This document shows positions 38,751 to 64,000 of a stretch of 64,000 nt of DNA, one piece after another. The translations under genes and the position numbers were made by a program. The DNA comes from Nitrospirae bacterium JdFR-85. GTDB lineage: Bacteria; Nitrospirota; Thermodesulfovibrionia; Thermodesulfovibrionales; JdFR-85. The DNA lies in NCBI GenBank assembly GCA_002011745.1, contig MTOU01000012.1, positions 1 through 64,000 of the forward strand, written 5' to 3'. Each line of letters opens with the position of its first letter. The stretch's first letter is position 1. The notes beneath the pieces are model-generated. The model saw nothing but the letters and a program-made list of their open reading frames with translations. It was not told where the DNA came from and ran no database searches.

Positions 38751-38832
38751 AATTCACCTCCATTTCATAGAAATATATGTTACTTTATTATAAAATAAAT
38801 TATATCAAAAAATAGCCTTAAGGGGTGAGCTT

Positions 38833-41667
38833 ATTAGATCAACACTGGGAATAAAACTACTATTTGTTCTTCTATTAAGTATTTTGTTTTCTTTCAGTAT
38901 TCTCATCTTTTTTATTATCAAAAAAGAGAGAGCTATACTCATAGAATTCAACAATGAAAAATCCTCTCTACTTGCCAGAACTATTACAGAGAGTCTAAAA
39001 GAGGCTATGCTTGAAAGAGATCCATCTATTCTAAAGCGTGTGATAAATAGTCATAATAGTATAGGTGGAATGAAGGCAGCAGTATTTAGTAATAATGGAG
39101 AGCTTGTTTATGGAGAATTTGATTATAGAATACCAAAAGAAGCCTTTACCTCTCCTGTGGAAAAGACTTTGAAGACTGACAAGAGTCTTATCTTCCTTAA
39201 ACCACTTCTTAATGAGAAGAGATGTCAGCCCTGTCATACTGCGAAAGATATGATGAGAGGGGTAGTGGCAATAGAGATCTCTAATGAGAATTTAAGGAAG
39301 GAGTTAGATGAAACAGTAAGAAGAATAGTATTATTTGCTATTGTGGTTGTTGGGTTTAGTGGTTTAGTACTTCTATTTGTTCTGAGGAGAATGGTAATCA
39401 GTCCAATCAATCTTCTCAAGGAGGGTTCTTTAAGACTTAGAGAAGGCAATCTAAGCCATAGAATTAAAGTAATCTCAAAAGATGAGTTGGGTTCTCTTGC
39501 AGAGGCATTCAATCAGATGGCGGAAGAGATAGAAAATGCCCAGAAAACCTTAGAAGATGCTGTTAATAGACGGACAAAAGAGTTGAAGGTTATTGCTGAA
39601 TTATCAACAAATGTCTTCAGAGCAGATCTCCAACTAAATGAAATAATGGCGAGATTTGTTAACTCAACAGTAGATGATCTTGGTTACTCCTTTTGTATAT
39701 TAAGTTTTCTTGACAGAAAGAATGGATTACTGTTTCATAAATACAAAAGAGGAATTGAGAACACCTCTTTTTTAGATAAACTTTCTCTGGAGAGTGATAA
39801 CCCTATTATAAAAGCCTTTTATGAAGTAAAATCTATTATTGAGAAAGCAAAGAATATAGGAATATCAGACAGATATGGATATGTAGCAATAATTCCTATA
39901 GTCTCTCATCATAGGAGCAGATGTAGAGAGATAAACCTTTGCAACAGAAGAGACTGTCCAGCTTTTAATAGTGTTGATGAGAGATGTTGGCTTTTAAAAG
40001 GGGTACTTTGTAATAGCCACAGAGATTTTGGTCCTGCTTCTAATCCTTATGAATGTATCGATTGTGACGCCTTCCCATTAATTGGGGTGCTCATAGTAGG
40101 AGTAGATAGCGAAAGAGAAAAGATTTCTATTCATTCGCTTGAGATTCTTACATCTGAAATAGCCTCTGCAGTAGAGAATTATAGATTGATAGAGCGCCAG
40201 AGAGAGAATATTGAGACTCTTATAAAACTTCATGATATAGCTGTTGAAAGGTTTCAATATCTAAGCATGGAAAAACTTTCAGAATCTATTGTTTCTTCAT
40301 CCATGACGTTATTCTCCAAGTTTGATGCTTCTGTGCTATGGTTAAAGAAAGAAGATGGTAGATTGTATTTAACAAAAGCCTCTGGAATTGATGAAAATAA
40401 AATACCTTCTTCAATCTCTATGGACAGCCAAAATTCTATAGTAGAGGCGATCAAAAGTGATAGGATTGTGGAGGCTTCTGACATAGTCACTTCAGGTCTT
40501 CTGAAAGTACTTGTTGTTCCTCTGAAATTGAGAGACTCTGTTATTGGTTGTCTTGCGCTATTCAGAGAGAAGGATCTTTTAATAAATGAGACTGAAAGGG
40601 TGATGCTTACTCTCTTTGCAGCTCAGGCTGCCTCTTCTGTGTCTGCTGCAAGGATCTATGAGGAGTTAAAAGATGAAAAAGAATTCTCTGATGCTATATT
40701 CAATCATGCAGTAAGTGGCATAATGGTACTTGATAAAGAAGGTAGAGTATTAAAGATAAACAAGGCAGCCTTAGAGATGTTGGAAGTTTCACCAGATGAG
40801 ATAATGAATAAAAAAATTGAGACAGTCTTTCCTGAGTTGAAAAATATGCTCTCTATTACTACAGGAAGTGCTGAGATAGAAATGAAAACCAAAAAAGAAG
40901 GTATAAAGACGATAGGTTATATTAACTCTTATTTGTTTGATAAGAAGGGTGTACAGAAAGGGATTATAGTAATCTTTAGAGATATCACAGAAATTAAGAA
41001 ACTTCAGGCTGAGATAAGGAAAAAACAGCATTTTGAGGCACTTGGTAAGGTAATATCTGGAGTAGCTCATGAGATAAGGAATCCTCTTTTTGCTGTACAG
41101 TCAATGACCCAGATACTTGAAAGAGAGATTGAATCCCCACAACATCAGATCTTTATACAGACAATGCTTAAAGAGATCCAGAGGATTAAAAGACTGGTAG
41201 ATGAACTGCTCTTTTATAGTAGACCTTCAAAACTTCAGATTGCAGAAGTTCCGTTAGAAGTGCTTTTTGAAGAGCTTAAAAGTTATATAAAGACAAAATA
41301 TCCAGAGGTAGATCTGTCAATATCTATACCAGAGCCGATTATATTGAAAGTTGATAAAGACAGATTAATACAGGTTTTCAGGAATCTTTTCGATAATGCA
41401 GTAGACGCTAAGTCTAAGAAGATTAACGTAGTAGCTGAAAAGAGAAACAAAACAGTGGTGATATCCATAACAGATGATGGTATTGGTATTAAGAAGTCTG
41501 ATTTGGATAAAGTCTTTGATCTATTTTTTACTACAAGAAAGGAGGGCACAGGGCTGGGGTTAGCCATATGCAGAAAAATAATTGAGGAGCACAATGGAAG
41601 TATAGAGATTGAGAGTACCGAAGGTAAAGGTACCACCGTAAGGCTTATTTTTAGAATTCTCAACTAA
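38833..41667 (+). CDS. Sensor histidine kinase with periplasmic CxxCH and cytoplasmic seven-Cys domain
   Basis: A kinase of about 944 residues. Order: TM (about 7-28), periplasmic domain with CQPCH at 131-135, TM, HAMP, GAF-like region holding a seven-cysteine block (about 366-415, with RDCPAFNSVDERCWLL and CIDCDAF), GAF, PAS (about 617-735), HisKA with His746 in AHEIRNPLF, and HATPase (DDGIGI, GTGLGLAI). No ATG, GTG or TTG opens the full first TM helix. An ATT at 38833, five bases after AAGGGGTG, fits best; TTG at 38884 would cut the helix in half. It overlaps cheB tail to tail by 4 bases. Confidence 0.88.
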   Translation: MRSTLGIKLLFVLLLSILFSFSILIFFIIKKERAILIEFNNEKSSLLARTITESLKEAMLERDPSILKRVINSHNSIGGMKAAVFSNNGELVYGEFDYRIPKEAFTSPVEKTLKTDKSLIFLKPLLNEKRCQPCHTAKDMMRGVVAIEISNENLRKELDETVRRIVLFAIVVVGFSGLVLLFVLRRMVISPINLLKEGSLRLREGNLSHRIKVISKDELGSLAEAFNQMAEEIENAQKTLEDAVNRRTKELKVIAELSTNVFRADLQLNEIMARFVNSTVDDLGYSFCILSFLDRKNGLLFHKYKRGIENTSFLDKLSLESDNPIIKAFYEVKSIIEKAKNIGISDRYGYVAIIPIVSHHRSRCREINLCNRRDCPAFNSVDERCWLLKGVLCNSHRDFGPASNPYECIDCDAFPLIGVLIVGVDSEREKISIHSLEILTSEIASAVENYRLIERQRENIETLIKLHDIAVERFQYLSMEKLSESIVSSSMTLFSKFDASVLWLKKEDGRLYLTKASGIDENKIPSSISMDSQNSIVEAIKSDRIVEASDIVTSGLLKVLVVPLKLRDSVIGCLALFREKDLLINETERVMLTLFAAQAASSVSAARIYEELKDEKEFSDAIFNHAVSGIMVLDKEGRVLKINKAALEMLEVSPDEIMNKKIETVFPELKNMLSITTGSAEIEMKTKKEGIKTIGYINSYLFDKKGVQKGIIVIFRDITEIKKLQAEIRKKQHFEALGKVISGVAHEIRNPLFAVQSMTQILEREIESPQHQIFIQTMLKEIQRIKRLVDELLFYSRPSKLQIAEVPLEVLFEELKSYIKTKYPEVDLSISIPEPIILKVDKDRLIQVFRNLFDNAVDAKSKKINVVAEKRNKTVVISITDDGIGIKKSDLDKVFDLFFTTRKEGTGLGLAICRKIIEEHNGSIEIESTEGKGTTVRLIFRILN

Positions 41668-42710
41668 GCCCTTTTTAGAATCTCTTTTGCCATTTCATCA
41701 ATAGATACAACTTTATCTACTACACCCCTCTCTATTGCCACTTTTGGCATTCCAAAAATAACTGAAGTCTTCTCGTCTTGTGCAATTGTTATTCCTCCTT
41801 TCTCTTTTATCCTTTTCAAACCTTCCACTCCGTCTGACCCCATTCCAGTCAGTATTACTCCTATTGCACGTGCACCGAATGTTTTAGCTACTGATTCAAA
41901 TAATACATCCACAGAGGGTTTATGTACTGAATCCTTAGGTTCTGGATCAAGCCTCACAAGAATGTCTTGATCTGAAGAGCTATCTTTTTTCAGTTTCATA
42001 TGTATACCAGAAGGTGCGATTAATGCTAAACCAGGCACTATTCTGTCTCCATCTGTTGCCTCTTTTACATCTATAGCAGATAGACTATTCAGTCTTTTTG
42101 CAAGAGACTTTGTGAACCCTTTAGATATGTGCTGTACTATAAGGATTCCGAAATTAATATTCTTAGGAAATTTTGGTAAAAGTACTTGTAAGGCTTGAGG
42201 GCCTCCTGTGGATGCACCTATAGCTACAACATCTACAACTCTGTCGCCTTTTGTAGAATAAAGAGGCTTCTTCTTATCTGTTACCCGAATAGGTTTGCCA
42301 ATAGCGATCGTCTTTACCTTTGTTAATATCTCTGTAGCAAGTTCAGAGAAACTCATATATCCTTTTGAGGATTTATCCACAAAATCCATGGCACCCAGTT
42401 CGAGCGCTTTTAGTGTAAGATCAGCCCCTTCCTTTGTGAACTGGGAAAGCATTAATACCGGCGTGGGTTGTATATCCATTATTCTCTTAAGAACTTCTAA
42501 TCCATCCATCTCCGGCATCTGCACATCAAGTGTTATCACATCAGGTTTGAGAAGGAGTGCTTTCTCAAGACCTTCTCTGCCATTGGATGCAGTGCCTATA
42601 ACCCTTATCAGTGGATCTGCATCAAAGATTCTAAGAAGGGCCTTTCTCACAAAAGGAGAATCATCAATAACCAATACTCTAATCTTATCTATCTTATCAC
42701 TTTTGGACAT
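41664..42710 (-). CDS. cheB: Chemotaxis protein-glutamate methylesterase CheB
   Basis: A 348-residue response regulator plus esterase. The receiver has Asp62 in LDVQMPEMDG. The esterase has the catalytic serine Ser167 in IGASTGGPQAL and a glycine-rich GVILTGMGSDGVEGL near the C-terminus. It removes or deamidates methyl-accepting glutamates on the receptor encoded in the same operon. It starts directly after the cheR stop and is the last gene of the operon. Confidence 0.95.
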   Translation of the reverse strand: MSKSDKIDKIRVLVIDDSPFVRKALLRIFDADPLIRVIGTASNGREGLEKALLLKPDVITLDVQMPEMDGLEVLKRIMDIQPTPVLMLSQFTKEGADLTLKALELGAMDFVDKSSKGYMSFSELATEILTKVKTIAIGKPIRVTDKKKPLYSTKGDRVVDVVAIGASTGGPQALQVLLPKFPKNINFGILIVQHISKGFTKSLAKRLNSLSAIDVKEATDGDRIVPGLALIAPSGIHMKLKKDSSSDQDILVRLDPEPKDSVHKPSVDVLFESVAKTFGARAIGVILTGMGSDGVEGLKRIKEKGGITIAQDEKTSVIFGMPKVAIERGVVDKVVSIDEMAKEILKRA

Positions 42711-43613
42711 TCAAGCTTTATTGTGAATATAGGGATTCTTTCTATACACTATAACACCATCTTTGTACTCAGGAATAAAAAGGTCTGTTTTATGTATAAG
42801 ACTTTCTGCTGAACCTATTATAAGATATCCATTGTCTGAAAGGATATTAAAGAAATTTTGGGTGACCTTTTTTATGGCACTGTCAGTCATGTAAATAAAG
42901 ACATTTCTACAGAATATTACATCCATGATATCAAGTGATTTGAAAGACTCAGGTGAGAGTAGATTGCCCTGAATAAACTGGACATTCTTCTGGTATATCT
43001 TTTTCAGAATATAACGTTCTCCTTTTATATTAAAATACTTTCTGATAAATTCTTTGTCTCCATTGAATGGCCTGAAAGAGTTTTTTGTGTAAATGGCGGT
43101 TTCAGCTTTCCTAATAGCGGTCATACTCACATCCATTCCTATTACTTTTACATCCCATCCCCAGGTAAAGAGTCCGCTCTCCAATATTAATATATTTAAT
43201 GTATAAGCTTCCTCTCCTGAAGAACATCCCGCAGAAAGAACTCTTAAAGTGTATTCTTTGCTACTTGATTTATAATTTTTGATTTCAACAAGAAGTTTTC
43301 TGAACAGATCTAATCTCTCCTCTTCTCTCATAAAATAGGTCTCATTGTTCACAATATGAGATACACAATGTAGTAATTCCTGTCTGGATGGCTCATTGAT
43401 AAGATAATTATAATACTCTCCATAAGATTTGAACCCCAAGATGCTCAATCTATGAGAGAGCTTTGTATGTAGAGTCAGTCTTTTATCTCCATTGATATTT
43501 ATTCCAAACTCTTTCTTTATTAAATCCTTAAGACGATTAAAATCCTCTTCTTTTAGTTCCGGTTCTTTTCTACCAAGCTTCTTCATTTCTGGATTAATAT
43601 TTTTTTGGGGCAA
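42711..43613 (-). CDS. cheR: Chemotaxis methyltransferase CheR
   Basis: SAM-dependent receptor methyltransferase, about 300 residues. The N-terminal helical domain contains HIVNNETYFMREEERL and the catalytic domain RVLSAGCSSGEEAYT and DVIFCRNVFIYM. The start is unclear: TTG at 43613 overlaps the HEAT gene by 20 bases, while ATG at 43586 begins 8 bases after its stop; neither has a clear ribosome site. The receptor in this operon has no C-terminal CheR-binding pentapeptide. Confidence 0.93.
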   Translation of the reverse strand: MPQKNINPEMKKLGRKEPELKEEDFNRLKDLIKKEFGININGDKRLTLHTKLSHRLSILGFKSYGEYYNYLINEPSRQELLHCVSHIVNNETYFMREEERLDLFRKLLVEIKNYKSSSKEYTLRVLSAGCSSGEEAYTLNILILESGLFTWGWDVKVIGMDVSMTAIRKAETAIYTKNSFRPFNGDKEFIRKYFNIKGERYILKKIYQKNVQFIQGNLLSPESFKSLDIMDVIFCRNVFIYMTDSAIKKVTQNFFNILSDNGYLIIGSAESLIHKTDLFIPEYKDGVIVYRKNPYIHNKA

Positions 43614-44724
43614 GTTTTTTTATTGATTTTTCTGCTGCCATTCTCACTTCATCCTCTGGATCATGGATCATTTCATTGAGAATTCTATATGCCTCTTGGG
43701 AGTCAATAAAGCCAAGAGCAAGAGCAACCTCGGTTCTTACTTCTGGATCAATATCATTGTAGAATTCCATCAATGCCTTGTATTCACCTAAGGAAGAGAT
43801 AAGTTTTGCAATTATGAATCTATGGAATCTGCCTGTATCTCGTAGTGCATTAATAAGGGCAGGTATCGCCTCTTTTCCAATTTTTAATATAGCTTCAATT
43901 GCATACTCCTGGAGTTTTTCATCTTCTAAGGCATTTATATAGTAGGTAAGCCCTCTTCTGTCCTCTGTCCAGCAGAGGGCTATAAACGCTGCCCTTCTGA
44001 TTTCAGGTTGGGGAGATTGCTGTAATTTTATCAGAAGCTCTATCCGGTCTTTAAGTTTTTTAATATCAGGTATGATACCCTCTCTAAGAGAGATAGTTAC
44101 TATAGCCTTTAAAGCAATCTCATTGAGATGAGGGTCTTTCAAAATAGGTAGAAGATATTCTATTGAAGATATATTCCCTGATTCTTCTAATGCCTTTATG
44201 ATCATTTCCCTGTATTCGTCTCTTTTGAGGGTTTCATGTAGTACCTTTAATGCTACTTCACCTCCAATATCACCAAGTGCCTTAATTGCTGCCATTGCAA
44301 CCCATGGCTCATCATCTTCTATGGCAATGGCCAAAAATCTCACTGCTTTTTTGTCTCCTATTTTACCGAGGGCTTCAGCAGATAAAGTCCTTACATTTAC
44401 AGAGGGGTCCTTTAGTCCTTCTATAAGTACAGGCACTGCAGAGGGGTCTTTTATATCGCCTAAAAGGGTTGCAGCAAATATTCTGACCTCTTCATCTTCG
44501 TCTTTCATTAATTTTAAAAGTGAGGGTAATGATTTAGAACCCACAATTCTGTAAAATTCCATTGATGCATTCCTGAGAGTATCGTTTTCATGGTCCTTCA
44601 GTGCACGTTCTAAAAAAGGGATATAGAGCTCTTCAGGATACTGAAGAAGTTTTTTTATGATATTGTTTCTCTTCCACCACTCCTTACTATTTAATCCTTC
44701 AAGTAAAGTTTTGATGTCTTCCAT
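43594..44724 (-). CDS. HEAT-repeat protein in the che operon
   Basis: A 376-residue, nearly all-helical protein made of about ten HEAT/PBS-lyase-type repeats (for example VPVLIEGLKDPSVNVRTLSA, AIKALGDIGGEVALKVLHE and ALALGFIDSQEAYRIL). There is no catalytic motif or signal peptide. It lies between the receptor and cheR genes, so it may be a scaffold or adaptor for the chemosensory array; that is inference from position. Its end overlaps the possible cheR start. Confidence 0.85.
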   Translation of the reverse strand: MEDIKTLLEGLNSKEWWKRNNIIKKLLQYPEELYIPFLERALKDHENDTLRNASMEFYRIVGSKSLPSLLKLMKDEDEEVRIFAATLLGDIKDPSAVPVLIEGLKDPSVNVRTLSAEALGKIGDKKAVRFLAIAIEDDEPWVAMAAIKALGDIGGEVALKVLHETLKRDEYREMIIKALEESGNISSIEYLLPILKDPHLNEIALKAIVTISLREGIIPDIKKLKDRIELLIKLQQSPQPEIRRAAFIALCWTEDRRGLTYYINALEDEKLQEYAIEAILKIGKEAIPALINALRDTGRFHRFIIAKLISSLGEYKALMEFYNDIDPEVRTEVALALGFIDSQEAYRILNEMIHDPEDEVRMAAEKSIKKLAPKKY

Positions 44725-44733
44725 GGAATCTCC

Positions 44734-47106
44734 TTAATTTCCATCTATTCCTTGTATAACTCTATAGGCATCACAGGTTATGCAGGTACGAATTTTTGTC
44801 TTGAAATCACCCTGTTGTACCCCTTTACACCATGTGCCTTCAATAAGCCAACATCTTTCATCTTCTGAGTTATAGGCAGGACACCTTTCTCTTACTTCTA
44901 TAGGACAATTGGTGATCTGCCAACACCTTTTATTGCTATTATGCGAAATTCTGAAATGGCTAAGTTTATAAGTCAGGTTCTCAACCTCAAGTAGTGTCTC
45001 CTCCGAAAGATTCTTCATTTCAGTGGCAAGTTTAAGGTTCTCAGAGGCTATATGGTTTATACTTTCCATTGCTCTGACTATGGCCTCACCACCAGCCCTC
45101 TGTTCTGTAGTAGCAGAGGCGATCTGTTGAGTCATGCTATTCATTAGCTCTATTGACTGTACCACCTGTCTTATACCTTTTACCTGTTCCTTCACTGCCA
45201 TATTAACTTCATTCACCATCATTTTCATCTTCTCTAAGGCCTCTCTGATCTGTTTCCCTCCCTTTGCCTGTTCCTTTACTGCTATATTTACATCTCTTAC
45301 ATGATTATTCATTGTTTCTATACTGTTCCTTATAATATCTGCACTGTCTGCCTGAGTTTTTACTGCAATTGCAACCTCCTCAGCTGAGTTGTTCATATCT
45401 TCAATGTATCTTATTGCCTGTTCTGCTCCTTTGCTCAGTTCTGATGCAGATCTTGCTATATCAGTCATTATCTCTGAGTTCTCTTTCATTGATGCCACAA
45501 TGCTCTGGAATGCCTCTTTACTGCCCGCTGCTAATGAAATACCAGCCCTTCCTTCATTGAATGTTTCCTCTATTGCCTTTACTGCTGTAGATGTTTCCTG
45601 TTGTACCTGTTTTATCACCTCACTGATCTCTTTTGTGGCTTCCATAGAACGTTCTGCAAGTTTTCTGATCTCTTCTGCGACCACTGCAAAGCCTTTGCCT
45701 GCTTCTCCAGCCCTTGCAGCCTCTATGGCTGCATTCAGTGCCAGAAGATTTGTCTGATCAGCTATTTCATCAATCACTTCCACAATAGAACCTATCTCTT
45801 CAGAACGCCTTCCTAAGCCTTCTATAATAGACATAGCCTTTTCAGTAGCCTTACCCATGTTCTGGAGGCTCTCGATTCCTTTATATATGGACATACCTCC
45901 CTTTTCAGCCTCCTCATAAGCCCGTCTGCTTAATGTACTGGCACCCTCTATCTTTTTTGCCACCTCCTGAATAGTGTAGATCATTTCATTGATTATATCT
46001 GATGTGTCAGAAACTAAATGTTTCAGGGAATCTGTGCTCTTTGCTATCTGTTCTATAGAGATAAGAAGGTTTTCAACAGTTAAGGAAGTATCATTAACTG
46101 CCTCTGTCATTGATGAGGCATTCTTAGCAGTATCCTCAATAGAGGATATCATCTCTTCTACAGTTGCAGATACTTCTTCTACTGAGATGGCCATATTATC
46201 AGCATTCTTCCCCACCTGCTCTACTGATACAGCCATCTCATTAACAGTTGCAGAGGTTTCTTCTACATTTATTGCTAAGGCTTCTGTATTTTTAGCTACT
46301 TCAGAAATGGATGCAGCAATCTGTTCAATTGAGGATGTGGTCTGCTCCGTTGCAGAGGCCTCCTGATGCACACCATCGGCTATCCGGTTTGAGCTTTTAA
46401 CCACATTTTCTGTTTTTAAGGCTATATGATATGACGAGGTTATGACACGAGAGATTAAATCTCTCAGTTTTTTTACAAGATTGTTAAAGGCAAAGGCCAT
46501 TCCACCCATTTCGTCAGAGGAATTTAAGGATACCTCTGCTGTAAGATCACCTTCTTCTGCATGGTTTATCACCTCATTCATTGTCTCAATCGGCTTTATT
46601 ATAAGCCTATTCAGAAGAAACAGTAGCAGAGCAGATGAAAGGGTAAGAGCACCAAGCATCATGACAAAAGTCTTTGTTATATTTTTTTTCAACATTCCAT
46701 GAGCCTCTTCTAAGGAATAACCAATAATTACATTTCCTGCTTTATCTCCTGCAACAATAATAGGTGTCTTTACCTCAATATAGTGTTTGTCAGATCGTGT
46801 CTTTTTCCTTTCTCTTAGAAGATTGCCTTCCTTCCCGACAACCTTGATATAAAGAATTTCTTTTTCCTCCATCACCTTCTGTATTGTTTTGTCCAGAAAG
46901 GTAAAATCCATAGTAAGAAGAGTATAAGCTCCCACACCGCTTATCAATCTACCAATTGTAGCAACCCTTTCTTCTGCTTCTCTCTTAGTTTCTTTGTACT
47001 GATTCCAGTAATAATAACCCCAGATTAAACTCAGAATTACAGCCAAAAGACCAACCACCAATATACTTATTTTTGATTTCAGACTCTGCAATCGAACTCC
47101 TTTCAT
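44734..47106 (-). CDS. Methyl-accepting chemotaxis protein with C-terminal seven-Cys domain
   Basis: A 790-residue chemoreceptor. Order: TM (about 13-35), a periplasmic domain of about 110 residues, TM (about 150-170), HAMP, long coiled coil, and a signalling tip with [19 protein letters not shown]. The last 60 residues form a seven-cysteine block with [22 protein letters not shown] and CITCDAY, closely matching the kinase at 38.8 kb and the small protein at 61.1 kb. ATG at 47106 is preferred because GGAGG lies just before it, within an in-frame extension from 47118. It follows a periplasmic binding protein gene. Confidence 0.93.
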
Positions 47107-47121
47107 GATAACCTCCATATT

Positions 47122-47913
47122 TTATTTAACTCTTACAAAACCATTCTTTTCTATGAGGGCTTGACCTATTTCAGAAAGCATAAACTCTATAAATTTCTTT
47201 GCCTTTCCAGTTGCAGGTCCTTTTGTAACAAGATTTATTTCTCTTACAACTTTGTATTTTTTGGTTTTTATATTTTCAGAAGTTGGTGCTACTCCATCTA
47301 CTTTTATAATTTTTACTTTCTGTTTATCGATTACTGCAGTGGCAAGAGGACCAATGGCTCCAGGTATATTTTTTACTGTTTCACTCAATGTTTCCATTGG
47401 TGAAATAATAGCTTTTTTCACATAAGGTTCACCGTTCATTACTATTTTCCGGAACTCTTCTCTACAGGCACATCCAGGTGTGCTTGTTACTACTTTAATT
47501 GGAAGATTGGGGCCACCCACTGCTTTCCAGTTTCTGATTTTACCAGTCATGATATCTTTTAACTGTTGTTTAGTAAGATTATCAATAGGAATATCTTTAT
47601 GAGCCACTACTCCAATTGCTCCATACCCTATGGTATAGGGTACAAGGCCTTTTTTTAATTCTTCTTCTTTCAACTCTCTGGAAACTCCTCCTATATCTAT
47701 AATTCCTGCAAGAGTGGCCTTAATACCTGCTAAAGAGCCACCTCCACTTAGGCCGATTTTTATTCCCGTTTTTCTTTCAAATAGAGGAACGGCCTTCTTC
47801 ATAATTCCTTCCAAGATAGTGACTGAACCTCCATATTTCAGGTCTACTGCTACTGCAACTGTTGAATATAGGAGAATAAAGATCGTTCCTATTATTAAAA
47901 CTACTCCTTTCAT
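47122..47913 (-). CDS. PstS-like periplasmic substrate-binding protein
   Basis: A 263-residue secreted protein. The signal peptide (about 1-22, ending VAVA) is followed by a PBP type 2 phosphate-binding-like fold (LSGGGSLAGIKATLAGIIDIG, ELKEEELKKGLVPYTI). The loop that is usually SGSGTR in PstS reads TPGCACREEF here, with two cysteines. No transporter permease or ATPase genes adjoin, and it sits between cheW and the receptor. A role as ligand-presenting partner of that receptor is likely but inferred. Confidence 0.88.
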   Translation of the reverse strand: MKGVVLIIGTIFILLYSTVAVAVDLKYGGSVTILEGIMKKAVPLFERKTGIKIGLSGGGSLAGIKATLAGIIDIGGVSRELKEEELKKGLVPYTIGYGAIGVVAHKDIPIDNLTKQQLKDIMTGKIRNWKAVGGPNLPIKVVTSTPGCACREEFRKIVMNGEPYVKKAIISPMETLSETVKNIPGAIGPLATAVIDKQKVKIIKVDGVAPTSENIKTKKYKVVREINLVTKGPATGKAKKFIEFMLSEIGQALIEKNGFVRVK

Positions 47914-47936: not shown

Positions 47937-48464
47937 TTATGAGAAGTTTTGTTCACTTTCCTGCCATCTACTTTTATTTTCATTTCTAAAAAGCTTTTCG
48001 AGATCCAAAATAATGATGATTCCTTTAGAGGTTTTTCCTACTCCTATTATATAATCTGTATCTATATCAAGTACTTCATCTGGAGCTGGTTCAACAGCAC
48101 CAGAAGGAAGTTTCATAACATGTGAGACTGCATCGACAAGAAGTCCAATAATTTTATTACCAATCTCTGCAACAATAATCCTTGAAGATTTTGTTAGTTC
48201 CCTGTCAGGCAGTCCAAGCCTTTTCCTAAGATTTAGAACAGGTAGTATCCTTCCTCTCAGGTTTATCACACCTTCCATATAGTGAGGAGAGTTCGGGACC
48301 CTTGTTATATTCCCAACTCTTATTATCTCTTGTACCTGTGTTATAGGCACACCATATTCTTCATTAAGAGAAAATACAACAATCTGGAGTTCTTCCTCTG
48401 ATTTTTCGATCTCAGACAGAATCTCTTCAGCAAGTCCTGAAGGTGGCAGTGTTATCTTAGACAT
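47937..48464 (-). CDS. cheW: Chemotaxis coupling protein CheW
   Basis: A 175-residue SH3-like adaptor that links receptors to CheA. Core motifs are VFSLNEEYGVPITQVQEIIRV, VINLRGRILPVLNLR and GLLVDAVSHVM. Its start overlaps the cheA end by 8 bases. An N-terminal extension of about 25 residues is present. Confidence 0.95.
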   Translation of the reverse strand: MSKITLPPSGLAEEILSEIEKSEEELQIVVFSLNEEYGVPITQVQEIIRVGNITRVPNSPHYMEGVINLRGRILPVLNLRKRLGLPDRELTKSSRIIVAEIGNKIIGLLVDAVSHVMKLPSGAVEPAPDEVLDIDTDYIIGVGKTSKGIIIILDLEKLFRNENKSRWQESEQNFS

Positions 48465-50070
48465 CTAATGTCCTCCTTTTCTCAAAGAATGTTGAGATGT
48501 CTATTATCAGTACTATTCTTCCATCTCCTAAAATAGAGGCACCTACTATGCCTTGGGTCTTGCCAATAGAATCATCCAGTGGCTTTATAACTATCTCCTG
48601 TTGTCCTCTTAGTCTGTCCACTGTTATAGCAAGACGTTTATCAGCTTTACTGAGTATAACGAGATAAAATCTCCTCTGTCTTCTGGTGTTTATTCCAAAA
48701 AATCTGTCGAGCCTTATAACAGGCAAAAGTTTTTCTCTAAATTTTATAACCTCATGATTGTTTATATAGTGAAGGTCCTCTTCTTTGACCTTTATTGTCT
48801 CATCTACTGCGCTCATAGGTATAGCATATATTTCATCCCCGATCTCTGCCATAAGAGCAGGGATTATGGCGAGACTAAGGGGCAATTTGATAATAAAGGT
48901 TGTCCCTTTCCCAGCAGAGGAGTCAACTATTACATGGCCATTCAGTCGAGTTATATTTCTATTCACCACGTCAAGACCCACCCCTCTGCCCGAGATTTCT
49001 GTAGCCTCTTCTTTGGTACTAAAGCCTGGAGAAAAGATAAGAGAAAGAAGAGATTCTCTGTCAGGAAGTGTGTCAGGACTTATTAGTCCCTTCTCAATAG
49101 CCTTCTTTTTTATCTCTTCTATATCTATACCCCTGCCATCATCTGAGACCTTTATAACTATGTAGTTTGATTCCTGGAAGGCTGATAGGGTGAGCTTACC
49201 AGTAGGTGGTTTGCCTTTTTTTACTCTCTCATCAGGTGGTTCTATTCCATGATCAATCGCATTTCTTATCATATGTAGAAGTGGCTCACCCAGTTCATCT
49301 ATAACTGTCTTGTCAAGTTCTGTATCCTCTCCCTCAAAAGTGAGTTCTATCTCTTTTCCCTGCTGTCGTGCAAGGTCTCTAACCATTCTGGGGAATTTAC
49401 TGAATACATGTTTTATAGGCAACATCCTTGCCCTCATTATTCCTTCTTGAAGTGCTGAAATTGTTTTGCCCATTATATCGAGGGTGTCCTTCAGCTCTTT
49501 TGCCAGATATTTGTCCTGTATAATCCCTCTCAATTCCGTTTCTATCTGATTTAGCCTTGTTTTATGGATCACGAGCTCTCCCATAAGGTTCAGAAGTTCA
49601 TCGAGACGTTTGAAATCTACTTTTATTGTGTCGGTCTTTGTACCCAGATAAGAGGAGAGTTCTATAGCCTTTTTTTCTCTTTCCTGTGGAACGCCTTTAG
49701 AAAGTCTCTCTATCTTGAGGATATCATCATTAAGGTCAACATCCTGTTCTGGTCTTTTTTCTATTTCCTGCAGGGCCCTTCTTATGACATTAGAACTCTC
49801 AAAAAGGATATCCATCACATCAGAAAAGGTTTTCTCTTTCTCAAGCACTTTCTTTAGAATCTCTTCAACCTTATGAACGTAGGTTTTGAGTGATTCATAC
49901 CCCATCATTCCAGAGTTTCCTTTTAGGGTATGAAGGGCCCTCAGGGTATTCTGAATAACCTCTCTGTTGTAACCCTCCTTCTCCAGAGACAACAGGGCAG
50001 CATCAAAGACTTCCAGATGCCCTTTTGATTCATCGAGATATTCGTTTAAGAGTGCTGAAAAATCCATCAT
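48457..50070 (-). CDS. cheA: Chemotaxis histidine kinase CheA
   Basis: A 537-residue kinase. P1 has the phospho-accepting His47 in RALHTLKGNSGMMG. The P3 dimer helices begin near residue 155, and the P4 ATPase has HMIRNAIDHGIEPP and SGRGVGLDVV. A CheW-like P5 (about 400-530) closes the protein. The short linker between P1 and P3 leaves no room for a full P2 domain, so the response regulators may be phosphorylated without P2 docking. It overlaps cheY by 4 bases. Confidence 0.95.
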   Translation of the reverse strand: MMDFSALLNEYLDESKGHLEVFDAALLSLEKEGYNREVIQNTLRALHTLKGNSGMMGYESLKTYVHKVEEILKKVLEKEKTFSDVMDILFESSNVIRRALQEIEKRPEQDVDLNDDILKIERLSKGVPQEREKKAIELSSYLGTKTDTIKVDFKRLDELLNLMGELVIHKTRLNQIETELRGIIQDKYLAKELKDTLDIMGKTISALQEGIMRARMLPIKHVFSKFPRMVRDLARQQGKEIELTFEGEDTELDKTVIDELGEPLLHMIRNAIDHGIEPPDERVKKGKPPTGKLTLSAFQESNYIVIKVSDDGRGIDIEEIKKKAIEKGLISPDTLPDRESLLSLIFSPGFSTKEEATEISGRGVGLDVVNRNITRLNGHVIVDSSAGKGTTFIIKLPLSLAIIPALMAEIGDEIYAIPMSAVDETIKVKEEDLHYINNHEVIKFREKLLPVIRLDRFFGINTRRQRRFYLVILSKADKRLAITVDRLRGQQEIVIKPLDDSIGKTQGIVGASILGDGRIVLIIDISTFFEKRRTLDV

Positions 50071-50468
50071 TGTTCTGCCTCACCCTTCTTGCCAACCAAT
50101 TTTTCAATTAGACTATGAAGCATCTCTGGTTTAAGAGGTTTTGTGATATACCCCTTTGCTCCAAGTTTGAGCATTTTTAGAGTGTCCTCCTCTCTCCCCT
50201 CTGTGCTTATTACAATCACAGGTATATGCTGAAATCTACCATTTTCTCTGAACTTCTCCATGAATTGGACTCCATTCATTACAGGCATATTAATATCAAG
50301 CAGTATAAGATCAAAATCATTTTCTCTTGAGAGAATCTCCAGAGCTTCCAGACCATTCATTGCATCTACTATCTTACAGTTCTTATAGCGCATAAGCAGA
50401 ATTTTGTACATCTGGTGGACCAGTTTTGAGTCATCCACAATAAGGACCTTATTTAGTGAAACAGCCAT
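50067..50468 (-). CDS. cheY: CheY-like response regulator
   Basis: A 133-residue single receiver domain with acidic residues at VDDSK, phosphorylation site Asp58 in LLDINMPVMNG, and the conserved lysine in YITKPLKPE. It is directly coupled to cheA. No flagellar gene is present, so its output target is unknown. Confidence 0.93.
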   Translation of the reverse strand: MAVSLNKVLIVDDSKLVHQMYKILLMRYKNCKIVDAMNGLEALEILSRENDFDLILLDINMPVMNGVQFMEKFRENGRFQHIPVIVISTEGREEDTLKMLKLGAKGYITKPLKPEMLHSLIEKLVGKKGEAEQ

Positions 50469-50483
50469 TTTTAACCTCCTCTC

Positions 50484-50876
50484 TTATCTGATATTTACTG
50501 GAATACCACACTCCCGAACCTTCAGGAGTAGGTCTTCCATATCAATGGGTTTTTCGTAATACCAGTAGGCACCTCTTCTCAGAGCAGAGTCCCGCATCTC
50601 TTCAGAACCATAGGCTGTCATAATTATCACAGGAGTCTCAGGACTCACCTTTTTGATATAACTTAAAAGTTCAAGTCCTTCTATTCCGTATACACCACTC
50701 AACCGGATATCAGCAATCACAAGGTCAAACTTATACCTCTCTATTGCCTCTTCTGCCTCTTCAATTCTGCTACAAGTAATAACGATAACCTTATTATTGC
50801 TAAGAAGATGAGAAAGACTTAAAAGAATAGAAGGTTCATCATCAACTATTAGTATCTTTTTGAGGTCATTCTTCAT
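50484..50876 (-). CDS. Single-domain response regulator heading the che operon
   Basis: A 130-residue receiver with VDDEP, Asp56 in IADIRLSG and lysine in YYEKPIDME. There is no output domain. It is the first gene after the sigma-54-type promoter and has a strong GGAGGTAG ribosome site. It resembles the receivers of NtrC-type regulators more than CheY. Confidence 0.9.
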   Translation of the reverse strand: MKNDLKKILIVDDEPSILLSLSHLLSNNKVIVITCSRIEEAEEAIERYKFDLVIADIRLSGVYGIEGLELLSYIKKVSPETPVIIMTAYGSEEMRDSALRRGAYWYYEKPIDMEDLLLKVRECGIPVNIR

Positions 50877-50984: not shown

Positions 50985-51016
50985 GAAAATTGGTCAGAAT
51001 GAATGAAAATCGGTCA
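50985..51016. repeat. Tandem 12-bp direct repeats upstream of the sigma-54 promoter
   Basis: GAAAATTGGTCA (50985-50996) and GAAAATCGGTCA (51005-51016) differ at one base and are spaced exactly 20 bp apart, close to two DNA turns. They lie about 90 and 110 bp upstream of the predicted start, as expected for an activator site. The distal copy overlaps the stop codon of the NtrC-type gene. Confidence 0.6.
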
Positions 51017-52324
51017 ACTGAGGTTATACTGCTTTATTTTTTCGTTCAAAGTAGAGCGAGATATGCCCAAGAGTTGGGCTGCCTTTGTACGATTTTTGCC
51101 TGTGAGCTCAAGAACTTTTTTGATATGGAGGCGTTCTACTTCTTTAAGAGAGAGAGGTTCTGTATCCCTTGAGGATGAGGTCTCTGGTTGCAGTAGCTCA
51201 GGTATCCTTATTACACCTTCAGTGGAGAGGATGGCAGCTCTTTCAAGTACATTTCTGAGTTCTCTTACATTTCCTGGCCAGTGATAGGAACAGAGAATGT
51301 GTATGGTCTCGGTGTCTAAAGGTCTGAATCTTTTATTCATATTTTTTGAGAATTCTTCAATAAAGTACTCCACAAGAAGGGGTATATCTTCTGGTCTTTC
51401 CCTAAGGGGCAGTATCTTAAGAGGCATTACATTTAATCTGTAATAGAGGTCCTCTCTGAAGGTGCCTTTCTTTACACATTCTGCAAGGTCTCTATTGGTA
51501 GCTGCTATAACTCTTACATCTATCTTGATATCCCTTGTACCACCAATTCTTCTGAAGGTCTTGGTTTCAAGTACTCTAAGGAGTTTTGCCTGCACTGGAA
51601 GGGGCATTTCTGCTATTTCATCAAGAAAAATAGTGCCTCCATCTGCTATCTCGAAAAGCCCTTTCTTGGTGGTCTTTGCATCCGTGAATGCACCTGCTTC
51701 ATATCCGAACAGTTCTGTTTCAAAGATATTCACCGGGAGAGATGCACAGTTTATATCTACAAAGGGTTTATCTCCTCTGTTGCTAAGGATATGAATATTT
51801 CTGGCAACAAGCTCTTTTCCTGTACCAGTTTCACCTTCTATTAGTACTGTTGTGGAAGGATTACTTGCCAATAGATTTATAAGATGTATAAGTCCCTGGA
51901 TATGTCTGGACCTTCCGATTATTGGATATGGTCCCTTCTGTAGAAGTTCTTTCTGTTTGAGCTTTCTCGTATCCAGGGCCCTTTCAACAATAATAATAAT
52001 CTCATCAAGATCAACAGGTTTCTGCAGATAATGCTCAGCACCGAGCTTTATGGCCTCTACAGCCTCTTTTATCTCTCCATATCCTGTCATTATAATAATG
52101 GCTATCTCAGGATGTTTGGATTTCAGTTCTTTAAGTATCTCAAGGCCATATATATCAGGCAGCCGCAGATCCAGAAGTACTACATCAGGAAGTTCCTTCA
52201 AGGCAAGATGTAGCCCTTCTCTGCCTGTATAGGCATTTATAAAGTCATAACCTCTTCCTTCAAATAGGGCTTTGAGGCTTAGGGTTATACCCTCTTCATC
52301 TTCAATTAACAGAATAGAGGCCAT
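51014..52324 (-). CDS. NtrC-type sigma-54 response regulator with GAFTDA loop
   Basis: A 436-residue activator: receiver with Asp52 in LLDLRLPDIYG, AAA+ domain with Walker A GETGTGKE and a C-terminal Fis-type helix-turn-helix (TKAAQLLGISRSTLNEKI). The sigma-54 contact loop reads GAFTDA rather than GAFTGA. The ATG at 52324 is chosen because a strong promoter would start transcription at about 52328; the ATG at 52336 lies inside its -10 box. It probably controls the chemosensory operon just downstream (inference). Confidence 0.92.
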   Translation of the reverse strand: MASILLIEDEEGITLSLKALFEGRGYDFINAYTGREGLHLALKELPDVVLLDLRLPDIYGLEILKELKSKHPEIAIIIMTGYGEIKEAVEAIKLGAEHYLQKPVDLDEIIIIVERALDTRKLKQKELLQKGPYPIIGRSRHIQGLIHLINLLASNPSTTVLIEGETGTGKELVARNIHILSNRGDKPFVDINCASLPVNIFETELFGYEAGAFTDAKTTKKGLFEIADGGTIFLDEIAEMPLPVQAKLLRVLETKTFRRIGGTRDIKIDVRVIAATNRDLAECVKKGTFREDLYYRLNVMPLKILPLRERPEDIPLLVEYFIEEFSKNMNKRFRPLDTETIHILCSYHWPGNVRELRNVLERAAILSTEGVIRIPELLQPETSSSRDTEPLSLKEVERLHIKKVLELTGKNRTKAAQLLGISRSTLNEKIKQYNLS

Positions 52325-52334
52325 TTTGAAAATC

Positions 52335-52364
52335 ATTATTTCAGATACAAAGATAATGTGTCAA
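52335..52364 (-). promoter_or_regulatory. Sigma-70 promoter giving a leaderless NtrC-type mRNA
   Basis: On the minus strand a perfect TTGACA (52364-52359), an 18-bp spacer and AATAAT (52340-52335) predict a start at about 52328, four bases before the ATG at 52324. There is no ribosome site. Confidence 0.65.
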
Positions 52365-59557: not shown

Positions 59558-60889
59558 ATGTTCAGGTATCTCATTATTGAAGACGAGAGAGAGGTTGCAT
59601 CTTACCTCAAAGAAGTTGTTGAGACCATAGAAGGGACTGCCTATATCGCCTATACAGGTGAAGAAGCTCTGAGTTTAGCAGAATCCTATATTATAGATAT
59701 CGCCCTTGTTGACCTAATACTGCCTGATATTGATGGAATAAAATTGATAGCTAAATTGAGAACAATTTCTCCAGAAACGATATTTATAGTAATAACCTCT
59801 GTATATGAGACTCAGAGCATAGTAAATGCAATAAAAGAGGGAGCTTCAGAATACATTACAAAGCCTTTTGAACTGACATATCTCCAGAAGGTGTTAAAAA
59901 CATATCAGGAGTTAATAAACCTTAGAAAGAAGATTCATACTAAACCGGCAGAAGAGGCCCTTCCTCTGGAGAGAATAGTTGGTGAGAGTCCTCAGATAAA
60001 GAATATAAAAAAGATAATTAAGGAGATAGCATCTTATGACAGTACGGTCCTGATAACCGGTCCTACAGGGGTTGGGAAAGGACTGATAGCAGAAGCAATA
60101 CATATGTTAAGCCAGAGAAGGAACGGTCCTTTTGTGGTTTTTGACTGCACAGTCGTTCCCGAAGGCCTTATGGAATCAGAACTGTTTGGGCACATGAAGG
60201 GTGCTTTTACAGGTGCCCATCAGAATAGGATAGGCTTAATAGAGAGGGCAGACAGAGGTACCCTTTTTATTGACGAGGTGGGAGACCTTAGTGTTCAACT
60301 ACAAGCAAAACTCCTCAGAGCTATTGACACTGGAGAATTCAGAAGAGTGGGAGCTACCAAGGTCAGAAGGGCTGATGTAAGAATTATTGTAGCTACTAAT
60401 AGAGACCTTGAAGAGATGGTAAAAAGTGGAAGATTCAGGAAGGACCTCTATTATAGATTGAATGTGATTCATCTCAGAGTACCACCTCTTTCAGAAAGAG
60501 GCGAGGATGTATGGCTCTTGGCAAATCACTTTCTCTCTCTTTATACCAAATCTACAGGTAAAAAGATAAGGGGATTCAGTAAAGAAGTAGAGAAGTTCAT
60601 AAGAACCTATCACTGGCCTGGAAACATAAGGGAGCTCAAAAATCTTATTGAGCGGGCTGTGGTGATGTCAGAAGGTCCTTGGATAACCCTTGGAGATCTG
60701 GCTCCACCAGTGGAAAGATTACAGCGAGATGGTTTTGTTTTCCCCAAAGACATAGTTCCTCTCAAAGAGATGGAGAAAAGATATATAGAGTATGTGCTTA
60801 AACTCACAGGCAATAATAAATCTCAGGCAGCAACCCTCCTTGGTATTACAAGAAAAACATTGCGAGATAAACTCAGACGAAGTGGATAA
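59558..60889 (+). CDS. NtrC-type sigma-54 response regulator with canonical GAFTGA
   Basis: A 443-residue activator: receiver with Asp52 in ALVDLILPDIDG, AAA+ domain with Walker A GPTGVGKG and GAFTGA in HMKGAFTGAHQ, and a Fis-type helix-turn-helix (SQAATLLGITRKTLRDKL). It lies 26 bp after the UbiA gene and 193 bp before the seven-Cys protein and hybrid kinase. That kinase is a plausible partner (inference). Confidence 0.94.
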   Translation: MFRYLIIEDEREVASYLKEVVETIEGTAYIAYTGEEALSLAESYIIDIALVDLILPDIDGIKLIAKLRTISPETIFIVITSVYETQSIVNAIKEGASEYITKPFELTYLQKVLKTYQELINLRKKIHTKPAEEALPLERIVGESPQIKNIKKIIKEIASYDSTVLITGPTGVGKGLIAEAIHMLSQRRNGPFVVFDCTVVPEGLMESELFGHMKGAFTGAHQNRIGLIERADRGTLFIDEVGDLSVQLQAKLLRAIDTGEFRRVGATKVRRADVRIIVATNRDLEEMVKSGRFRKDLYYRLNVIHLRVPPLSERGEDVWLLANHFLSLYTKSTGKKIRGFSKEVEKFIRTYHWPGNIRELKNLIERAVVMSEGPWITLGDLAPPVERLQRDGFVFPKDIVPLKEMEKRYIEYVLKLTGNNKSQAATLLGITRKTLRDKLRRSG

Positions 60890-61082: not shown

Positions 61083-61322
61083 ATGATGAATTGTTGGGAG
61101 TTTAAAAAGTGTGGAAGAGACAAAACAGGTGACTGTCCTGCCTATCAGAAGAGAGCAGGAAAGATATGCTGGCTGGTAGCAGGTACCATGTGTGGTGGTA
61201 AACCACAGGGTACATTTGCCCAGAAGATATCCTCTTGTATGGAGTGTGATTTCTATCAGTACATACATGAAGTGACTAAAAAGTCCAAGAAAGAATCCCA
61301 AAAAGAGTCTAAGAAGATGTAG
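61083..61322 (+). CDS. Stand-alone seven-cysteine (two-CW-like) small protein
   Basis: A 79-residue protein made almost entirely of the cysteine block also found at the end of the chemoreceptor and inside the kinase at 38.8 kb: NCWEFKKC, GDCPAYQKRAGKICWLVAG, MCGGK and CMECDFY, seven cysteines in all. The tail is Lys/Ser-rich. There is no signal peptide, so it should be cytoplasmic; a metal or Fe-S site is possible but untested. The ATG at 61083 follows GGGAGGTAG. The hybrid kinase begins 39 bp downstream. Confidence 0.85.
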   Translation: MMNCWEFKKCGRDKTGDCPAYQKRAGKICWLVAGTMCGGKPQGTFAQKISSCMECDFYQYIHEVTKKSKKESQKESKKM

Positions 61323-61361
61323 TTACAAAACTTACCTCCCGAGGAAGGGAGGTGACGAGGT

Positions 61362-64000
61362 GTGTTCTTGAAAAGTCTTACCACAAGGCTCGTCTTGGTA
61401 GCTGCACTTCTTAGTATTCTGGTGTTAACTGTTGTCTTTTTTTATGACTACAGGAAACACTGGAGAATCATGGAGAATACTCTCAGCCACTTATTAGAAA
61501 AAAATTTAATGTTAATAGAAAAGATTGTTAAAACAAAAATAGTTGAACATAATATTGAGGCTCTTAGAGATGAACTAAAAATGTTTAAAGATGTAGGACT
61601 TTTGAAAGGAATTTATATTTTTGATAACACAGGGAGTGTCTGGTTTGCTGATAAGGAATTAGAAGGCTTTCTTCCTCCTTTCTTGTCCGGTGTCTGTGTA
61701 GAATGTCATGGAGCTATCTCTGAAAATATTCCTACAATTGCAACTGTTGAGTTTAAGAGGACATCAGAATGTATGGGTTGTCATGGTGAAGGAGATACCC
61801 CTATTGGCTATGCCACATTACTTATTGAACCTCCTCCAATGTTAAATCTGAGTGTAACTACGGAAAGAGGCCTCTTGATAGGATATATAGGAATCGTTTT
61901 TATATTTATAATTTTTGGTGGCTATATCCATTATTCGATAAATAGACGTCTTAGGAGATTGAGGAATGGGGTTTTAGCCTTTGATCCTAACAAATGGGAA
62001 CCTTTTAAAAGAATGGGAAGGGACGAGATTGGTGAGATTGCATGGTCTTTCAACAGGATGGCAGAAAGGATGATACAGCATGAGAAGGCTATTGAAGAAT
62101 CCAGAGCATATCTCAAGAATCTGTTTGATAATATCACTGATATGGTAGTTGTGATTGATCGTGAATATACCATCCAGTATATAAATGAGCCTACCTTAAG
62201 ATATCTTGGTAAATCAGAAGATGAAGTGCTGGGCAATAAATGTTACAGAGTATTTCATAATGCTGAAAAACCCTGTTCTGAGACAGTTCCTGAAGAACAC
62301 TGTGGTCTAAAAGAAGCATTCTCAGGCAAACAGGTACATACTGTGCATATGCATCATACCAAGGCAGGGAAAAGATGCTATTCTGTTAGATATCTACCTT
62401 TTTACATGAATGAAGAAATACCTTATGTGATAGAAATTGCCACTGATATTACAGAGTCTCAGAGACTACAGAAAGAGATAAAGGTCTTTAAGGCCTATGC
62501 AGAGGAGCTTCAAGGGATAAATACGCGTGAGGAATTTTTTGAAAGACTTGTAAGACTTGGAATAGAGGTTCTGGAAGCGGATGTATCCCTTGCTTCTCTT
62601 ATAAATGGGCATAATGGTAAAATGCGTTTTCATAAAAAACTTACAGATAAGAGCAATGTTGAGAGAGACCTGAGAAGTATAGACCCTGAAGAGTGTATCT
62701 CAGTGTTTGGTATAAAATCAGGGAAGCCTTTTGTGTCTGAAAGCCTTGAGGGTTTTCCTCAAAGTAGATTAAAAGAGGTTCTGAAGAGTTTAGGATTTGA
62801 GACCTTGGTATCTATCCCTCTGAAAAGAACAGGGAAAGTGGTAGGAGTGTATAATCTTCTTTACAAAAAGAGAGGTATATTTAGAGAATCGGATAAAGAG
62901 TTTTTGAATCTTCTCACTGAAAATATAAACACTGTAGCAGACAGAGTATGCCATTATGAAGACCTTAAATCCCAGACCGAGAGGCTTAATGCATTAATCA
63001 ATACTGTGGAAGTGCTTGCTGGTTCTGTAGAGCTGGATGATGTACTCAAGGCAATAGTATCCTCCACTGTAAAAATTCTTAAGCCCGATGTGGCTACTGT
63101 GATGCTCTATAATGATGAAAGAAATATATTGATCCCTGTTTCTGTCCACGGGATTGAAAAGGCAGTTTATGATGGATTGTATATACATCTTGATAAGATC
63201 GACTTAAAGTTTGACCCTAAAGACAATACTTTCAGCAGTCTAAATATATTCAATGAGAAAAAGTGGGCACCATTTCATGGTATTGCTTCCATGATAGAGA
63301 TGAAGTCTTTTTATGCAAGATGCTTTTTTAATAAGAAGGGTGAAAAGATGGGGGTATTAATTGGTTTGTGGAAGGAAGAACATCTACCAAGTTTTGACGA
63401 GATAGAACTATTTAATGCATTCAGTTCCTTTGCAGAGGTTGCCCTTGAGAAGGCTATTCTCATGAAACAGATCATCACAGAGCAGAAGCACTGGGAGGAG
63501 ACCTTTAATGCCTTTTCTGATCCTCTCTTTATTACTGATAGAGAATTCAAAATCCTCAAGGCCAATAAAGCCTTCTATGAGTTTTGTAAGATTAAAGAAG
63601 ATATTACAGACAAGAAATGCTATGAGATTGTTCACAAACAGGAAAACCCGCTGAAAGACTGTCCCCATTTTGAGACTATAGAGAAAGGAGAGACTGCTAT
63701 ACGTGAGATGGAAGATCGAGCAAGGGGGATAACCGTTCTTTACACTACCTCACCTATCTATGGTGAGACAGGGGAGGTTCAGAGCATAATTCATAATATC
63801 AAAGACATTACATTTGTAAAGAAGATGGAAAGAGAAAGAGAAGAACTCCATCAGCAACTCCTTCATGCCCAGAAGATGGAATCTATTGGTACACTCACCG
63901 GTGGCATAGCCCATGACTTTAATAATATACTTACTGCAATAATGGGTCATGCAGAGCTTGCAAGGCTGAAATCAAGAGACTCTTCCATAGAAGGTAATCT
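61362..64000 (+). CDS. Large sensor kinase with two periplasmic CxxCH motifs (partial, runs off the right edge)
   Basis: An open frame of at least 879 residues starting at GTG 61362 (GGAGGTGA just upstream; TTG at 61368 is an alternative). Order: TM (about 6-28), periplasmic domain with CVECH at 112-116 and CMGCH at 137-141, TM (about 170-190), HAMP-like, PAS (about 250-370), two GAF-like regions, a second PAS and a HisKA domain with His851 in GGIAHDFNN. The ATPase domain lies beyond the window. Heme c binding is inferred from the motifs. Confidence 0.9.
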   Translation, partial: MFLKSLTTRLVLVAALLSILVLTVVFFYDYRKHWRIMENTLSHLLEKNLMLIEKIVKTKIVEHNIEALRDELKMFKDVGLLKGIYIFDNTGSVWFADKELEGFLPPFLSGVCVECHGAISENIPTIATVEFKRTSECMGCHGEGDTPIGYATLLIEPPPMLNLSVTTERGLLIGYIGIVFIFIIFGGYIHYSINRRLRRLRNGVLAFDPNKWEPFKRMGRDEIGEIAWSFNRMAERMIQHEKAIEESRAYLKNLFDNITDMVVVIDREYTIQYINEPTLRYLGKSEDEVLGNKCYRVFHNAEKPCSETVPEEHCGLKEAFSGKQVHTVHMHHTKAGKRCYSVRYLPFYMNEEIPYVIEIATDITESQRLQKEIKVFKAYAEELQGINTREEFFERLVRLGIEVLEADVSLASLINGHNGKMRFHKKLTDKSNVERDLRSIDPEECISVFGIKSGKPFVSESLEGFPQSRLKEVLKSLGFETLVSIPLKRTGKVVGVYNLLYKKRGIFRESDKEFLNLLTENINTVADRVCHYEDLKSQTERLNALINTVEVLAGSVELDDVLKAIVSSTVKILKPDVATVMLYNDERNILIPVSVHGIEKAVYDGLYIHLDKIDLKFDPKDNTFSSLNIFNEKKWAPFHGIASMIEMKSFYARCFFNKKGEKMGVLIGLWKEEHLPSFDEIELFNAFSSFAEVALEKAILMKQIITEQKHWEETFNAFSDPLFITDREFKILKANKAFYEFCKIKEDITDKKCYEIVHKQENPLKDCPHFETIEKGETAIREMEDRARGITVLYTTSPIYGETGEVQSIIHNIKDITFVKKMEREREELHQQLLHAQKMESIGTLTGGIAHDFNNILTAIMGHAELARLKSRDSSIEGN

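Follow-up and report, generated by a model that had tools for sequence, protein, structure and literature searches.

We identified a seven-cysteine module that occurs three times in the window (the whole stretch of DNA analysed, 64,000 nucleotides of contig MTOU01000012.1 from Nitrospirae bacterium JdFR-85), in a sensor histidine kinase, in a chemoreceptor and in a stand-alone protein of 79 residues, and sequence comparison confirms that the three copies are homologous two-CW modules. The copy in the kinase belongs to a divergent subfamily and interrupts a GAF domain, lying between two of its beta-strands. That the module is a sensory part of signalling proteins is well supported by the anatomy of the proteins that carry it, as it is mobile, is combined with many outputs and is spliced into two relay folds, and therefore resembles an input domain.

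Three homologous copies of the module

All three proteins share the cysteine order C[WR]x4-5C...CPA...CW...C...CxxC. The first-pass annotation, which was made from the sequence alone, had proposed three matching blocks with their seven cysteines in common order; that order is seen directly in the sequences, and the NCBIfam model NF045718 (“two-CW domain”), profile-profile comparison and a shuffle control agree that the blocks match. In the kinase, the domain was placed at 39916..40074 (+) using profile scores, AlphaFold2 models and excision, and its seven cysteines span 39922 to 40065; the block reported earlier is real, with a quoted start (39925) one codon late, the first cysteine lying at 39922. 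The chemoreceptor domain lies at 44752..44928 (-), where NF045718 gives 45.2 bits. The most likely open reading frame of the stand-alone protein is 61083..61322 (+), with the two-CW block at 61086-61268.

Against the NF045718 cut-off of 35 bits, the stand-alone protein scores 71.9 bits (E 4e-20) and the chemoreceptor copy 39.8-45.4 bits (E 4e-10 at 39.8), both above it, and the isolated kinase block falls below it at 20.9 bits (E 3e-4). Despite this score, the kinase block is homologous in profile-profile comparison to both the chemoreceptor block (99.1%, E 4.6e-19) and the stand-alone block (96.3%, E 1.5e-9), and we therefore regard it as a divergent relative of the family. A profile from which kinase-type sequences had been left out gave 45.1 bits for the kinase block, compared with 14.2 bits for the best among 20,000 shuffles.

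The kinase block retains all seven cysteines and contains CR and CW, so that it does not have two CW dipeptides. The replacement of the first tryptophan by arginine had been noted correctly and characterises GAF-embedded copies, 16/22 of which show it. The kinase module also lacks Lys45 and Thr32 of the family, as seen in an alignment of 235 domains, and may therefore be tuned differently from other two-CW domains, judging from these residues. Beyond the window, the JdFR-85 genome (2.33 Mb, 47 contigs) encodes two or three further copies: a second stand-alone protein, a C-terminal copy in a histidine kinase (L167), and one weak, partial match.

Insertion into GAF and HAMP relays

The window kinase (38884..41667, +) consists, according to Pfam, of a periplasmic sCache_heme-like domain, HAMP, the GAF domain with two-CW, GAF_3, PAS, HisKA and HATPase. 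Its first TTG falls within transmembrane helix 1, so the true start probably lies upstream. The frame stays open upstream through 38794-38884 with no ATG, GTG or TTG, and the start is either unusual or missing. The periplasmic domain (residues 36-131) reaches 26.9 bits with PF21563, whose cut-off is 27, and its sequence contains a c-haem motif, CQPCH, at approximately 39223..39237 (+). A periplasmic CxxCH is present in the window kinase and in 6/6 orthologues with complete N-termini.

AlphaFold2, applied to eight orthologues, predicts that the segment at 39538..40221 (+) folds as a GAF domain (pLDDT 76.6) in which strand 114-122 precedes and strand 181-189 follows the module, and Foldseek matches it to GAF structures (E 5e-6). 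Structure prediction, which had been suggested as a check, thus resolved the kinase segment as a GAF fold, but the module itself was poorly predicted within it. When kinase residues 345-397 were excised, a fragmentary GAF_2 match became full-length and rose from 13.4 to 23.5 bits, a score that stays below the cut-off of 28.6. GAF-embedded modules occur in diguanylate cyclases as well as in kinases, and excision from one such cyclase (L192) gave a full-length GAF match of 27.8 bits, above the cut-off of 22.4.

A second group consists of kinases some 545 residues long, whose HAMP connector contains the module after AS1 and before the GDEIGEL...FNQM of AS2. When the module is excised, HAMP becomes a single match in 22 sequences (two entries being the same protein); in L188, for example, the Pfam HAMP model matches in two stretches before excision and in one (2-52/53) after. 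These HAMP-connector kinases (L188, L186, L207-L230) are mostly encoded beside sigma-54 regulators. A search for near-full-length relatives recovered them from roughly 40 of the phylum's genomes, and in 29/30 loci from that search a sigma-54 response regulator gene adjoins the kinase gene. No paper describing HAMP-connector insertions was found in the literature searched.

The survey of fusion partners across genomes that had been called for recovered MCP, HisKA/HATPase, REC, GGDEF and HD-GYP proteins. The module follows HATPase in L167 and L175, lies between HATPase and REC in L185 and L190 and between REC and HATPase in L189, and precedes GGDEF in L183, L184, L203 and L172, PAS-HD-GYP in L187 and REC in L179; it also follows MCPsignal, once with CZB in the same protein (L171). 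Tandem pairs occur in two proteins (L158:9599-10285 and L155:4169-4867). With at least six types of output fused, insertion into both GAF and HAMP, and neighbourhoods of signalling genes, the proposal of a shared signalling module is strongly supported.

Chemosensory cluster and gene neighbourhoods

The kinase gene is followed in the window by CheB (41664..42710), CheR (42711..43613), a HEAT-repeat protein conserved in the cluster (43594..44724), the chemoreceptor (44734..47118; HAMP and MCPsignal by Pfam, with the C-terminal two-CW domain matched by NF045718), a PBP-like periplasmic binding protein adjoining the receptor (47122..47913), CheW (47937..48464), CheA (48457..50070), two CheY-type receivers (50067..50876) and a sigma-54 NtrC-type response regulator (51014..52336), all on the minus strand. 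This regulator is the likely partner of the window kinase, a pairing supported by two other genomes (L083, L084) in which the kinase and sigma-54 regulator genes are adjacent. The HEAT-repeat gene is conserved between CheR and the receptor, with two copies in L072 and L073. A predicted lipoprotein at 37371-38750 has an Asn/Thr-rich low-complexity stretch containing cysteine (CGECNTNANTNTNTN...).

In 13 Nitrospirota MAGs, the same CheA/CheW/MCP set is accompanied by a stand-alone two-CW gene directly after CheW. These stand-alone proteins share 64-77% identity with that of the window, the receptor also carries two-CW, and the 8/13 MAGs whose contigs extend to the other end of the cluster have a convergently oriented two-CW kinase gene there. 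In the JdFR-85 genome, the PBP-like gene occupies the place after CheW. The stand-alone gene is found at a distance of 14 kb, flanked by the genes for a sigma-54 response regulator (59558..60889, +) and a multidomain hybrid histidine kinase (61361..64000, +). The latter is a frame of 1210 codons that leaves the window and is for this reason absent from simple lists of open reading frames; its full frame (L170:6357-9986) contains periplasmic CVECH and CMGCH motifs. The arrangement of regulator, stand-alone gene and hybrid kinase is repeated in L094 and L095 and partly in L087 and L088. The earlier statement that the domain sits on a cytoplasmic signalling protein in every case holds for the kinase and the chemoreceptor but not for the stand-alone protein, which is not itself a signalling protein.

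Around stand-alone genes at named loci, the fraction of DNA in kinase, receiver, MCP, GGDEF or HD-GYP open reading frames was 0.23-0.32 within 2.5 kb compared with 0.09 at 6-8 kb. Signalling genes are absent from the neighbourhood of some stand-alone genes, and no recurrent enzyme family was found beside these.

Family extent and conservation

NF045718 matches 162/396 sampled genomes of the phylum (E 1e-6). Named relatives are mostly from Nitrospirota and Deltaproteobacteria, and others come from MAGs labelled Actinomycetota, Chloroflexota, Elusimicrobia, Spirochaetes and Phycisphaerae and from two archaea. Haem-copper oxidase was found in 108/162 genomes with two-CW and in 50/234 others, a comparison within the Nitrospirota sample that is phylogenetically confounded. 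As the module is commoner in genomes with the oxidase, the idea that it is simply a strict-anaerobe trait is not supported. The window's own genome lacks a haem-copper oxidase.

Among 235 distinct domains, a set gathered by profile and hence biased to sequences that retain the cysteines, Cys 1-4 are present in 235/235, Cys 6-7 in 232/232 and Cys 5 in 226/235; Lys45 (221/233), Pro17 (218/235) and Thr32 (220/234) are also well conserved. An acidic residue (D/E) after the last cysteine was considered as an extra ligand and rejected, as it is not conserved in the inserted forms. The model of the stand-alone protein has low-to-moderate confidence and few secondary-structure elements, in keeping with a cofactor-dependent fold. 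A Foldseek search with this AlphaFold2 model returned no structural matches, the family profile found no relative among PDB sequences (one chance match, E 0.34), and a Pfam scan of 88 members returned no family for the module. We found no paper on the two-CW domain in the literature searched; articles on the “CW domain” concern the unrelated eukaryotic zf-CW. The earlier remark on function stands in that none is recorded in the sources searched, but the family was already named.

Proposed function and alternatives

The homology, the seven cysteines, the two insertion sites, the variety of fusions and the conserved cluster are shown by the results above; which cofactor is bound, what is sensed and which way the effect runs, we infer from them. 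The module, inserted as it is into several kinds of internal sensor protein, probably binds a metal or an Fe-S cluster and monitors the state of the cell interior. The fuller reading that we favour, at a little under an even chance, is of a cytoplasmic module whose cysteines ligate a metal, most likely as an Fe-S cluster, and which serves as an input to signal transduction through mechanical coupling. A redox- or gas-responsive metal centre is favoured because the cytoplasmic cysteines are invariant, the fold is sparse and predicted with low confidence, and partner proteins often carry periplasmic c-haem sensors. The cysteines of the roughly 55-80 residue module would hold the centre, and cluster oxidation, cluster loss or NO, O2 or sulphur chemistry would alter its fold. 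This change would then be passed mechanically to the host relay, as the module either interrupts the GAF beta-hairpin or the HAMP connector or directly adjoins an output (kinase, MCP or GGDEF). The window kinase, with a putative periplasmic haem and cytoplasmic two-CW, would probably have a sigma-54 response regulator as its target, and the receptor, through its C-terminal copy, would signal to CheA/CheW/CheY; since both carry the module, both outputs would read one internal state.

Conservation of the cysteines is also compatible with a zinc site, or with a role in structure or docking alone. The strongest competitor, though itself unlikely, is a zinc-binding domain with one or two Zn-Cys sites, acting as a structural brace or as a Zn-thiolate redox switch comparable to CZB. 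The small size, abundant cysteines and few secondary-structure elements of the module would suit zinc, as would its CZB-like C-terminal place in MCPs and the co-occurrence of CZB and two-CW in L171, but the module has a single CxxC knuckle, its other cysteines precede W or P, and any Pfam zinc family that matches among the 88 members does so weakly and in a single member. Less probable still is that the module is mainly for docking, the free protein binding embedded copies and linking the kinase and receptor arms. Consistent with docking, 13 MAGs have the gene for a free copy between those for CheW and a receptor with two-CW, and wherever the contig is long enough a kinase with two-CW is also close by; however, docking does not require invariant cysteines, and many fusions have no linked free copy. 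Binding of haem or another small ligand through a Cys-Pro motif of the haem regulatory type is very improbable: proline follows Cys 3 in 218/235 domains and partner proteins often have periplasmic c-haem motifs, but CP is common at Fe-S ligands too, and the conservation of six or seven cysteines would be left unexplained.

Cytoplasmic sensor families with a wide range of fusions, such as PAS, GAF and CZB, are few, and two-CW has a name without a function. Its residence within HAMP and GAF allows one to test directly by what means an internal input can drive these relays, the conserved chemosensory cluster is a system in which its effects on a relay can be tested, and the free 79-residue protein makes identification of the cofactor straightforward. 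We tentatively propose, as an idea more doubtful than the metal-centre reading itself, that two-CW is a cytoplasmic Fe-S sensor of a new class, housed directly in the moving parts of relay domains (HAMP connector, GAF hairpin), with redox sensing in two compartments and two outputs from one signal. If true, single kinases would combine a periplasmic haem with a cytoplasmic cluster, and two-component and chemosensory outputs would be coupled to one signal.

Comparison with known systems

As NF045718 already names the family, two-CW is not a new kind of domain. The stand-alone and chemoreceptor copies share its seven-cysteine order and lie above its cut-off, whereas the GAF-embedded kinase form, with the same order, lies below it and mostly carries R in place of the first W. 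No function is given in the entry, and in nothing that we found are the GAF-embedded subfamily, the HAMP-connector insertion or a chemosensory cluster encoding as many as three two-CW proteins described.

CZB (PF13682) is similarly a small cytoplasmic metal-type module on chemoreceptors and other output domains. The metal site of CZB is a His/Cys set, whereas two-CW has cysteines and no sequence match to it; the Pfam scan gave no CZB match among the 88 two-CW domains. The Geobacter class 40H Esn chemosensory system (PMC5585712) offers a resemblance only, as a CheA/CheW/MCP system of a redox-active bacterium. The sCache_heme (DUF3365/Tll0287) sensors differ in that theirs is a periplasmic domain, and the portions of PMC12889525 drawn on here, which report that a domain of this type binds NO, do not mention two-CW. 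These sensors resemble the periplasmic CxxCH sensor of the window kinase, whose score with PF21563 (GSU0582-type) lies just below the cut-off.
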